Below, in pieces: positions 35,044-39,929 of a DNA stretch of 64,000 bases. Origin of the DNA: Exiguobacterium alkaliphilum 12/1. GTDB lineage: Bacteria; Bacillota; Bacilli; Exiguobacteriales; Exiguobacteriaceae. The notes under the pieces are model-generated. The model was given only the letters and a program-made list of their open reading frames with translations, was not told where the DNA came from and searched no databases. The DNA is taken from assembly GCF_000714435.1 (NCBI RefSeq), contig NZ_JJMW01000015.1:1-64000 (forward strand), given 5' to 3'. A program made the position numbers and the translations under genes. Positions within the stretch are counted from its first letter, which is position 1, and each line of letters begins with the position of its first letter.

Positions 35044-35115
35044 TTGACAGTTATGGACCGTTCCGTTAGCTTGGAGAAGGACTAATTTTGGATTCGGCCG
35101 TCGTGCCGAATTTTT
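35044..35115 (+). promoter_or_regulatory. yttB promoter with a terminator-like hairpin in the leader
   Basis: TTGACA (35044-35049) is followed after 17 bp by TAGCTT. Downstream, ATTCGGC (35092-35098) pairs with GCCGAAT (35105-35111), followed by TTTTT, ahead of the transporter start. GGAGAAGG before TTG 35088 is a second ribosome site in the same reading frame as the transporter, so translation over the hairpin could control read-through. Confidence 0.45.
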
Positions 35116-35147
35116 ATCGTTTAGGCGATGGGAAAGGAGGAGTTGGC

Positions 35148-36338
35148 GTGAACAAGAAAATGCCGATCTCAATATGGATTTTGGTCATCGCGATGGCGCT
35201 CAATACGACGGCGGCGTCTTTTTTATGGCCGTTCAACACGTTATATATTAATGGATATTTAGGAGAATCGATGACGCTCGCCGGTATCGCCCTCCTCGTC
35301 AACTCCGCCCTCGCCATCGTCGGGAACTATATCGGCGGGACGTTGTTCGACCGACTCGGTGGCAAGACGACGCTCGTGATCGCGGTATCACTGCTCCTTG
35401 CCAGCTCACTTGGATTTCTGTTGTTCCATGCGACGTTCTTCGGATACTTGGTCTGGCTCGGGCTCATCGGCTTCTCGGGCGGGCTCGTCTTCCCGACAGT
35501 GTATGCTTTCGCCGGCTTGATTTGGCCGGAAGGGGGGCGCCGTTCGTTCAATGCGATATATGTCGCCCAAAACGTCGGTGTCGCGCTCGGTACGGCGATG
35601 AGCGGACAAGTGGCGCGCATCAACATCGAATGGATCTTTTATGCGAACTTCTTTTTGTCGGTCTTGTTCGTCGTCGTGCTTTTGTTCGGCTTCCGTTACT
35701 TGAAAGAAACGACTCGTCCGGTCATTCAGTCGCAACTTGAGGCGGCCGCGACGACGTTGTCCGGTGCGACGATGAAATCGATGTGGTATGTTGCCATCGG
35801 TTACGCCGCCCTCTGGTTCGTCTACGTCCAGTGGCAAGGGACGATCGCCGTCCACTCGCAAGGGCTTGGCGTGACGATTAGTGAATACTCGCTACTCTGG
35901 ACGGTGAACGGGGCGATGATCGTGTTCGCCCAACCGCTCCTTAACCGGATGTTGCGTCAATTTGAAGACGACTTGAAGCGCCAGCTCATCATTGGTGGCG
36001 TCATCTTCCTTGCGGCCTTCCTCGTTGTGCCGTTCGCCGGAGGTTTTGCGATGTTCATGGTCGCGATGATCGTCATGACGGTTGGCGAGATGTTTATCTG
36101 GCCGGCGGTCCCGACGATTGCCGCCAAACTCGCACCGGCAGGGAAAGCCGGTCAATATCAAGGACTTGTTAATATCGCGGCGTCGGTCGGGCGCATGATT
36201 GGCCCGACGATGTCCGGGATATTATATGACGTGTTCGGTATCAATGCGGTCTTCGGACTCATGATTCTTCTCAGTGCAATCGGTCTCTTCTTCTTCATTA
36301 AAACGGGTTCACTGAATCGACAAACATCGGAAGAATGA
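35148..36338 (+). CDS. yttB: MFS transporter (YttB-like)
   Basis: A 396-residue major facilitator with twelve hydrophobic segments and the loop 2-3 motif GGTLFDRLGGKT (about 63-74). It resembles B. subtilis YttB, a putative multidrug-type exporter; the substrate is unknown. GTG 35148 follows AAAGGAGG. An in-frame TTG at 35088 with its own GGAGAAGG could add 20 residues. It lies just upstream of the rhodopsin gene in the same direction. Confidence 0.85.
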   Translation: MNKKMPISIWILVIAMALNTTAASFLWPFNTLYINGYLGESMTLAGIALLVNSALAIVGNYIGGTLFDRLGGKTTLVIAVSLLLASSLGFLLFHATFFGYLVWLGLIGFSGGLVFPTVYAFAGLIWPEGGRRSFNAIYVAQNVGVALGTAMSGQVARINIEWIFYANFFLSVLFVVVLLFGFRYLKETTRPVIQSQLEAAATTLSGATMKSMWYVAIGYAALWFVYVQWQGTIAVHSQGLGVTISEYSLLWTVNGAMIVFAQPLLNRMLRQFEDDLKRQLIIGGVIFLAAFLVVPFAGGFAMFMVAMIVMTVGEMFIWPAVPTIAAKLAPAGKAGQYQGLVNIAASVGRMIGPTMSGILYDVFGINAVFGLMILLSAIGLFFFIKTGSLNRQTSEE

Positions 36339-36455
36339 GCATATTCGCTGCATCTTCATATACGTTGCACCATTGAGTTGTGCATTAAAAAGAAGTAAAG
36401 GATCCTTTCACATCGTAACGCCGGGTCGTCTTTCGTCTTGTCTCATGTGAAGCAG

Positions 36456-37211
36456 ATGGACAATGTGAGTGAAGAAGTGAACTTACTTGTATTGGCGACA
36501 CAGTATATGTTTTAGGTCGGCTTTGTCGGCATGGCTGCGGCAACGCTATACTTTTTGGTGGAACGAAACAGCTTAGACCCTGAATATCGTTCCGTCGCGA
36601 CGGTTGCAGCGCTCGTCACGTTCGTCGCAGCGATTCATTATTACTTTATGAAAGATGCGGTCGGCGATTCAGGTCTGCTATCGGAAATCACAGGATTCCC
36701 GACGGAGATTCGCTATATCGACTGGCTCGTCACGACGCCGCTCTTGCTTGTGAAGTTCCCGTTGCTGTTGAGTTTGAAAGGGAAGATGAAGACGGGGTTA
36801 CTGACGAAACTGATCGTGGCCGACGTCATCATGATCGTGGCCGGTTATCTCGGGGAATCGTCAATCAACTTGAACGGTGGCTTCACGCAGCTTGGGCTAT
36901 GGGGTTATTTAGTCGGTTGTTTCGCTTGGCTCTATATCATCTATTTGTTATTCACGAACGTCACGAAAGCGGCGGAGTCGTCTCCGGCACCGATTCGGAA
37001 AGCGCTCCTCAACATGCGTCTCTTCATTTTAGTCGGGTGGGCGATATATCCGATCGGCTATGCGGTGACGCTGTTTGCGAGCGGCGTTGAGGTCCAGCTC
37101 GTACGGGAGCTGATTTACAACGTGGCGGATTTAGTGAACAAAGTCGGGTTTGGACTCATCGCGTTCTTTGCGGTCAAAACCATCTCGACGATGAAACAAA
37201 TTAAGACGTAA
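36456..37211 (+). pseudogene. Exiguobacterium-type proton-pumping rhodopsin, in-frame amber codon
   Basis: The frame from ATG 36456 (or GTG 36465) reads a complete seven-helix rhodopsin except for TAG at 36513-36515. From memory this codon is Trp16 (TGG) of E. sibiricum rhodopsin. All key residues are kept, in that protein's numbering: His57 (AAIHYYF), Asp85 counterion (RYIDW), Thr89, Lys96 at the donor site (LLLVKFP) and retinal Lys225 (VNKVGFG). The rest is unbroken to 37211. Restart at ATG 36531 would give 226 residues missing most of helix A, with only a weak ribosome site. One base change or a sequencing error explains the stop. The protein would pump protons outward in light. No retinal synthesis genes are nearby. 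Confidence 0.9.
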
Positions 37212-37224
37212 CGAAAAGTTCACA

Positions 37225-37254
37225 TTGACGCGGTTTTTTATCTTGGGATAGAAT
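37225..37254 (+). promoter_or_regulatory. leuS promoter
   Basis: TTGACG (37225-37230), an 18-bp spacer and TAGAAT (37249-37254) place the start near 37261, ahead of the T-box. Confidence 0.75.
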
Positions 37255-37260
37255 GAAAGG

Positions 37261-37506
37261 GTAGATAAACTATCGCGATGAAAAGGAATAGTATCGTCTT
37301 GTCTGTATCGTAGAGAGCCGGTGGTTGGTGCGAACCGGTATATGGACGTCGAGAACTCGCCTTGGAGCAGTTTGCCTGAACGAGAGTAGGGTAAACCGGA
37401 GTTACGCCACGTTATCGGCGTCTCAAGTGGCAGAAATGCAACATGGGTGGTACCGCGGAGAGCTTTTAAGCCTTTCGTCCCATTACCGGGGCGGAAGGCT
37501 TTTTAT
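37261..37506 (+). promoter_or_regulatory. Leucine T-box leader
   Basis: The conserved T-box sequence TGGGTGGTACCGCG lies at 37444-37457. The specifier codon reads CTC (37356-37358) in GAACTCGCC, fitting leucine tRNA. The terminator AGCCTTTCGTCCC (37469-37481) with GGGGCGGAAGGCT (37488-37500) ends in TTTTT. Uncharged tRNA-Leu would allow read-through into leuS. Confidence 0.96.
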
Positions 37507-37526: not shown

Positions 37527-39929
37527 TTGGACTATTTTAAACATCAAGACATCGAGCCGAAATGGCAAAAGCGTTGGGAAGAGAAGGATGCGTTCCGGAC
37601 GACAGAAGATCCGGACAAGGAGTGTTTCTACGTCCTTGACATGTTCCCATATCCGTCAGGAGCCGGACTTCACGTCGGTCACCCGGAAGGTTACACGGCG
37701 ACGGACATCATCGCCCGCATGAAACGGATGCAAGGCTTCAACGTGCTCCATCCGATGGGATGGGACGCGTTCGGTCTTCCGGCCGAGCAGTATGCGTTAG
37801 ACACAGGGAACGACCCGCGCGAGTTCACAGAGCGCAACATCGGCACGTTCCGACGCCAGTTAAAAGAACTCGGTTTCTCATACGATTGGGACCGTGAAAT
37901 CAGCACGACGGACCCGAAATACTATAAATGGACGCAATGGATCTTCACACAGCTCCACGACCGCGGACTCGCCTACGTCGACGAAGTCGCCGTCAACTGG
38001 TGCCCGGCCCTCGGGACTGTGCTTGCCAACGAAGAAGTCATCGACGGGTTATCGGAGCGCGGAAACCATCCGGTCTATCGTGTGCCGATGAAACAGTGGG
38101 TGCTTCGCATCACGGAATACGCCGAGCGCTTGCTCGACGATTTAGAGGGGCTTGACTGGCCAGACAGTGTCAAAGAGATGCAACGCAACTGGATTGGCAA
38201 GTCGGTCGGGGCCGAAGTCGATTTCAAAGTCGACGGTCACGATAAAGTCGTGACGGTGTTCACGACACGTCCGGACACACTTTACGGCGCGACATACGTC
38301 ACGCTCGCACCGGAACACCCATTCGTGAAAGCGATCGCGACACCTGAACAAGTCGTCGCCATCGAAGCGTACGTCGAAGAAGTCTCGAAAAAGACAGACC
38401 TCGAGCGGACCGACCTCGCCAAAGAGAAGACGGGTGTATTCACCGGCGCTTACGCGATCAACCCGGTCAATGGCGAGAAACTTCCGGTTTGGATTGCCGA
38501 CTATGTGTTGTCGACATACGGCACGGGCGCGGTCATGGCCGTACCTGGACATGATGACCGCGACTATGAGTTCGCGAAGACGTTCGACCTCCCAATCCGC
38601 GAAGTCGTCACAGGCGGCAACTTGGAGGAGGCGGCTTACGTCGAAGACGGCGTTCACGTCAACTCAGGCTCGCTTGACGGGCTCAACAAAGCCGATGCGA
38701 TTGCCAAAATCATCGAAGAACTCGAATTCGCCGGCACTGGCCGCGCCAAGACGACGTATCGTCTCCGAGATTGGTTGTTCAGTCGCCAACGCTATTGGGG
38801 CGAGCCGATTCCAATCATTCATATGGAAGATGGCACACTCAAGACGGTAGCGGTCGAAGAGCTTCCGCTCGAACTCCCAATCATCGATGAAATCAAACCG
38901 TCGGGTACGGGCGAATCACCGCTTGCGAACGCGGACGAGTGGTTGACATACACGGACCCGGTGACAGGAGAGAAGGGGCGTCGCGAGACGAACACGATGC
39001 CACAGTGGGCCGGCAGCTGCTGGTACTACATTCGCTTCATCGATCCGCATAACGAGGACATGATCGCCGACCCAGAGAAGTTGAAGCGCTGGCTCCCGGT
39101 CGACTTGTATATCGGTGGTACGGAGCATGCGGTCCTTCACTTGCTCTATGCACGTTTCTGGCATAAAGTGCTCTACGACATCGGCATCGTTCCGACGAAC
39201 GAGCCATTCCAAAAGCTCTATAACCAAGGGATGATCCTCGGTGAGAACAACGAGAAGATGTCGAAGTCAAAAGGCAACGTCGTCAACCCGGACGACATCA
39301 TCAAATCGCACGGTGCCGACACGCTCCGTCTTTATGAGATGTTCATGGGACCGCTCGACGCGGCCATCGCCTGGTCGACGAACGGACTTGACGGCGCTCG
39401 TCGCTTCCTCGACCGCGTCTGGCGTTTGTTCGACCAAACGGAGCTCACAGACGGCGCGCCGACGGCCGACTTCGAGCGGACATACCATCAGACGGTGAAA
39501 AAAGTGACCGAAGACTACGAGGCGCTCCGTTTTAACACGGCCATCTCGCAACTCATGGTCTTCATCAACGAGGCGTACAAACAAGACACGCTTCCAAAAC
39601 AAGAGATGGTCAACTTCATCAAGATGCTCGCCCCGGTCGCGCCACACTTGGCCGAAGAATTGTGGGAGCGTCTCGGCATGACGGAAGACTTGACGTACGC
39701 GGCCTGGCCGACGTTCGATGAGTCGAAACTCGTCAGCGACACGATTGAAGTCGTCATCCAAGTGAACGGGAAGCTTCGTGCGAAGATGCACGTGGCCCGT
39801 GACGCTTCGAAAGAAGTACTCGAGGCTGATGCGCTCGCGAACGAACGCGTTCAAGAGTTCACGGAAGGAAAGACGGTCCGCAAAGTGATTGTCGTACCTG
39901 GTAAACTCGTCAATATCGTCGTAGGATGA
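37527..39929 (+). CDS. leuS: Leucyl-tRNA synthetase
   Basis: An 800-residue class I synthetase. The HIGH-type motif is HVGHPEG in [13 protein letters not shown] (about 45), and KMSKS is in [11 protein letters not shown] (about 575). The CP1 editing domain with TTRPDT sits between them. It starts at TTG 37527 after AGAGGAGG. Expression is controlled by the T-box leader. Confidence 0.98.

Follow-up and report, generated by a model that had tools for sequence, protein, structure and literature searches.

ESR (PDB 4hyj) and E17R of Exiguobacterium sp. S17 (PMC4871484) are rhodopsins of the same family as the gene described here, and they share its key residues. ESR is reported to pump protons when expressed, with K96 as its donor residue (PMC8387761), and E17R to bind retinal when expressed (PMC4871484). 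In contrast, the copy in the window, by which we mean the whole stretch of 64,000 nucleotides of Exiguobacterium alkaliphilum 12/1 DNA that was analysed, is interrupted by a stop codon at Trp16, and its start signals are damaged. We conclude, with a probability of roughly 85%, that it is a very recently silenced pseudogene of an Exiguobacterium sibiricum-type proton-pumping rhodopsin. No paper on a broken Exiguobacterium rhodopsin was found among the matches listed in the literature that we searched. The gene is single-copy in a 3.1-Mb genome of 71 contigs, and the window covers the initial 64 kb of contig C15. The contamination rating of this genome (G000) is 7.58%. Two compared 20-kb stretches of its contigs C25 (85,324 bases) and C70 (85,323 bases) were 100% identical with an offset of one base; this pair is a redundant assembly, which perhaps forms part of the contamination figure.

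The initial annotation had placed a TAG inside a rhodopsin frame, and the sequence and its translation agreed with it: the codon at 36513-36515 is in frame with the rhodopsin, and the frame is then open to a TAA at 37209-37211. In a profile search, Pfam Bac_rhodopsin (PF01036) matched the protein from Met22 on with an E value of 1.6e-56, and phmmer aligned the same protein with the solved ESR structure, 4hyj, at an E value of 4.9e-123 (query positions 1-223 on residues 22-244). The residues at ESR positions D85, T89, K96 and H57 and the Schiff-base lysine are all present in the alignment, as had been stated of K96 and the other key residues. The coding sequence is that of an ESR-type proton-pumping rhodopsin by its Bac_rhodopsin homology, its acceptor Asp, its donor Lys96 and its Schiff-base Lys; T89, H57 and the Schiff-base lysine presumably have their assigned roles at these positions. 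It does not have the uninterrupted frame and the start signals of a working rhodopsin, given the TAG, the weak SD, the GTG start and a changed upstream box (Table 1). Within the bacterial family, matches came from 22 of 38 genomes, in the form of 20 full-length uninterrupted copies, the window copy with its one TAG, and a relic in two pieces in the sister-genus genome G035. Comparison with related rhodopsins, which the initial annotation had proposed as a check, gave TGG at the site of the stop in 20 of the 20 other full-length family copies, and the number Trp16 was found to be correct when counted from the Met start of 12 sister-genus proteins. The 20 uninterrupted copies all begin with ATG as well, and their SD pairing ranges from −8.1 to −9.3 kcal/mol. 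Thus the gene carries a lesion that blocks the full-length product and that is without a counterpart in the orthologues, the stop being present in 1 of 21 full-length family copies, as in a pseudogene.

Table 1. Features at the rhodopsin locus, in window coordinates.
Feature	Positions	Strand	Remarks
Upstream MFS-type transporter gene	35088..36338	+	Longest frame; GTG 35148 is the SD-picked start; family name assigned by eye
TAAAAA, counterpart of TAAAAT box	36386..36391	+	TAAAAT invariant in the 8 other rhodopsin-bearing congeners
AAAGGATCCTTT perfect palindrome	36397..36408	+	Intact; all nine congeneric rhodopsin genes have its GGATCCTTTCA part upstream
Degenerate ribosome-binding site AAGCAG	36450..36455	+	Anti-SD pairing −3.0 kcal/mol vs −8.3 to −9.3 in 8 congeners
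ATG, start in the initial annotation	36456..36458	+	SD pairing upstream only −1.1 kcal/mol; adjoins the former ribosome-binding site
GTG at the homologous start	36465..36467	+	ATG in 8 congeners
Probable ESR-type rhodopsin pseudogene	36465..37211	+	Body intact; translation stops at the internal TAG
In-frame TAG	36513..36515	+	TGG in 20/20 other full-length family rhodopsins
Next in-frame ATG (Met22 of ESR)	36531..36533	+	Weak possible reinitiation site
T-box leader upstream of leuS	37269..37485	+
leuS	37527..39929	+	Name by eye from the sequence and its T-box

Two claims made for the 5' end of the gene did not hold. The start had been placed at 36456, but the ATG of the congeners aligns with the GTG at 36465; and the TAG had been called the only lesion, but the SD, the start codon and the upstream box are also changed, in each case at a position that does not vary in the eight congeners. 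Among the nine gene-bearing congeners, the window genome alone has the stop, the weakened SD, GTG as the start and the changed TAAAAT box. GTG starts are common, and such a start is mild when it occurs alone. We infer from the sequence that the TAAAAT box is a promoter −10-like element; a conserved −35 was not seen, and the box was not among the hits of the promoter scan. The palindrome listed in Table 1 is a possible operator, and in the 12 sister-genus rhodopsin copies the ~260 bases that precede the Trp codon contain no GGATCC.

To place these changes against chance, we counted in each of the nine congeners the positions that are changed although they are invariant in the other eight. The window gene had changed four such positions, namely the T of the box, one G of the SD, the start codon and the codon for Trp, all of which are expression-critical; they amount to 2 of 34 upstream columns and 2 of 221 codons, and none is a missense. 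In the other eight genomes together there were 29 changes, 15 in codons and 14 in upstream columns (including two gaps); no change was critical, as the box, the SD core and the start were all spared and no stop had arisen. The difference in critical changes between the window gene and the other eight gave a Fisher probability of 2.4e-5, and under random mutation, with ~7-8% of such changes critical, the probability of four in four is 3-5e-5; both values depend on a class of critical sites that was defined once the data had been seen. The closest relative, G008 (99% protein identity from Met22 and 88.8% identity over a 3.7-kb DNA stretch), served for two further controls. With the G008 starts chosen according to SD and start codon, 59 of its ORFs were compared with their window counterparts, a set that includes at least one non-coding frame. 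The start codon was changed in the rhodopsin only, and SD pairing was reduced by at least 4 kcal/mol in 2 of the 59 pairs, the rhodopsin and one at window 59966 on the minus strand (−6.1 to −1.7). For internal stops, 60 of 72 G008 ORFs were matched in the window, and the 12 unmatched ORFs lie beyond its ends. Stops were detected in three of the 60, which were the rhodopsin, a 5' over-extension, and a frame that is also interrupted in G006 and G012, leaving the rhodopsin as the only genuine interrupted gene. Three more rows had less than 90% coverage without internal stops: one (44%) is a poorly conserved frame with a best match that is partial in the window and G012 and has a stop in G006, one (83%) has an over-extended start and matches fully from a shorter start, and one (79%) runs off the end of the window. 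This control led us to reject an overall surplus of interrupted genes in the window genome's assembly.

The same results bear on the view that the TAG arose in sequencing or assembly, an error being one possibility named in the initial annotation, or that it represents a minority variant, so that the rhodopsin works, perhaps weakly expressed. Such a view would accommodate a stop made by a single substitution in a protein body that is without decay, and the redundant contig pair and the contamination rating speak for it; the TAG, known from one assembly of one strain, might reflect a wrong base call or a polymorphism. However, an error at the stop leaves the changes at three other expression-critical sites of the gene unexplained, and the local error rate looks low because the 60 matched ORFs include no other genuine gene with an internal stop. 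Based on these two observations, an error at the stop is the less likely explanation of the TAG, and we consider a working rhodopsin improbable.

Still less probable is the proposal that reinitiation, or a start, at ATG 36531 yields a 226-residue rhodopsin that is missing about half of helix A and still has a role. This ATG is indeed 15 bases past the stop, as had been noted, and the remaining frame is intact; a promoter-like TTGTCG-18-TATACT inside the gene could also be cited for such a start. The promoter-like sequence occupies window 36523-36552, TATACT is absent from the five relatives compared, and the match is probably due to chance. The SD pairing before ATG 36531 is −4.0 kcal/mol, which is not improved against the −3.1 to −5.2 kcal/mol of the relatives, and a strengthened reinitiation site was rejected for this reason; the upstream lesions would lower any translational coupling too. 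In seven-helix rhodopsins, truncation of the first membrane helix should disturb the topology, and loss of residues 1-21 would cut that helix. The estimate of half of helix A for the product from Met22 relies on bacteriorhodopsin numbering, because a structure prediction with an intact relative as lead sequence, made from five aligned rows, reached a mean pLDDT of 49.6 and was too poor to place helix A.

Read-through of the TAG, whether through a suppressor tRNA or a deviant genetic code, is hardly credible, as the open frame downstream and nothing further favours it, whereas release factor 1 (prfA) is present and open, the sole PylS-family match scored 21.6 bits against a cut-off of 178.15 (1 of 14 genomes was over the cut-off in the PylS control), the CUA anticodon was seen in none of the 47 tRNAs found, an incomplete list that lacks those for Ile and Pro, and internal stops occur in no further genuine gene of the window. 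Recoding, including pyrrolysine, was rejected on this evidence, in which neither a cognate tRNA with its synthetase nor loss of RF1 was found among the genes and the incomplete tRNA list. The initial annotation had likewise seen no pyrrolysine-type machinery, and the suggestion that the stop is tolerated is without support from either the SD of ATG 36531 or the RF1, PylS and tRNA results. Both recoding and functional reinitiation are unlikely.

The case for a silenced gene rests further on the age of the event. The window branch carries 38 polarised synonymous changes and one replacement, besides the changes of start and stop, and seven synonymous differences could not be polarised. The sole replacement is Leu to Phe at codon 153, where ESR has Phe too. 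Branch dS ranges from 0.253, calculated from the 38 changes, to 0.39, which is half the pairwise value. If the branch had been neutral throughout, ~142-219 nonsynonymous changes would be expected, and two (the stop and Phe) were observed; the upper bound for a neutral period is ~3-4% of the branch, arguing that the gene was constrained until very recently. The relaxed selection expected of a pseudogene is not seen in the ratio of one replacement to 38 synonymous changes, which is compatible only with a very recent event, and the silencing is thus very recent, in good agreement with the age first proposed for the change. The intact rhodopsins of the eight congeners have pairwise dN/dS values of ~0.006-0.031 where computable, five pairs with G012 being saturated. 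Conservation of the body equal to that of the intact copies would likewise be shown by an active but weakly expressed gene.

Nine of 19 congeneric genomes, the window genome included, have the rhodopsin, which is flanked by the transporter gene on one side and the T-box leader of leuS on the other. Where the rhodopsin is missing, in 10 congeners, 300-307 bases separate the end of the transporter gene from the leuS match, and no trace of a rhodopsin was detected at these 10 loci by tblastn at E 1e-3. Presence and absence need six Fitch changes on a leuS+crtM tree in which some nodes have 46-66% support; when the labels were shuffled, the mean was 6.6 changes, and 891 of 2000 shuffles needed six or fewer, so that presence of the rhodopsin hardly follows the tree. 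The 3' end of the transporter gene occurs in two forms that track presence or absence of the rhodopsin (window 36200-37268, loci L154-L172), in a comparison from which G006, G012 and G018 were left out because the fragment was too short. Between G010, which has the rhodopsin, and G007, which does not, leuS is 97% alike, the transporter 3' end 76%, and the remaining gene 86-100%. Because the two forms go with presence and absence, these sequences suggest that the transporter tail and the rhodopsin may have been exchanged between species as a block. The G035 relic (L221, G035:C1:856807-857069) consists of residues 50-95 and then 148-189, the second piece with two stops, and no leuS or MFS match was found in its 3.1-kb locus. 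A plasmid origin was also considered and rejected, as the seven plasmid records that match are all below 60% identity.

Genes for retinal formation were searched for in the same 19 genomes. Neither Blh nor an RPE65-type oxygenase was found in any of the 19, and for lycopene cyclase, where the family searched was PF05834, all 19 gave only short matches under the cut-off. The Blh control gave a hit in 4 of 6 genomes and failed to do so in a marine group II record and in Exiguobacterium SL-9 itself. One squalene/phytoene synthase was found, which in the window genome is beside three frames that resemble desaturases by eye; this neighbourhood agrees with PMC6331483, where a C30 pathway is predicted for the genus. 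A second phytoene synthase is reported in E. sibiricum (PMC2615787). Aurantimicrobium minutum is reported to make a functional rhodopsin though it is without known retinal genes (PMC7734400), so missing retinal genes alone do not make a rhodopsin useless. Eight congeners keep intact, strongly conserved rhodopsins though the searched retinal-forming families were not found, which raises the question of the source of their retinal.

In the silenced gene, the altered box, the weak SD and the GTG would be expected to lower the transcript level and cause poor initiation, any translation that is initiated would end after 16 codons at the TAG, and no full-length opsin, hence no pump, would be made. 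Silencing would fit a gene that is dispensable in the clade, because the rhodopsin is absent from 10 of 19 congeners and the searched retinal-forming families were found in none of the 19. The pattern of changes suggests selected silencing, short of proof. One could tentatively envisage, although we regard it as rather doubtful, that selection acted stepwise, weakening the box, the ribosome-binding site and the start while the opsin was constrained, and that the stop closed the process, as an opsin for which the cell makes no retinal of its own may be costly outside particular communities; in that event the locus would record adaptive down-regulation of bacterial phototrophy in progress.

Ordinary bacterial nonsense pseudogenes have a recent stop in a dispensable, patchily present gene, and the window copy is like them in both respects. 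As a fresh pseudogene of a well-known rhodopsin type, it is of an ordinary kind in an unusually clean form. It differs from simple neutral decay in that its four private changes at conserved sites are all expression-critical and none is a missense. The G035 relic represents loss of the rhodopsin in the same family, but at a late stage of decay to two residual pieces, whereas at the window locus the loss of a light-driven pump from a bacterium seems to have only just begun; because the family also holds intact sister copies and a late relic, the order and cause of rhodopsin loss can be tested.
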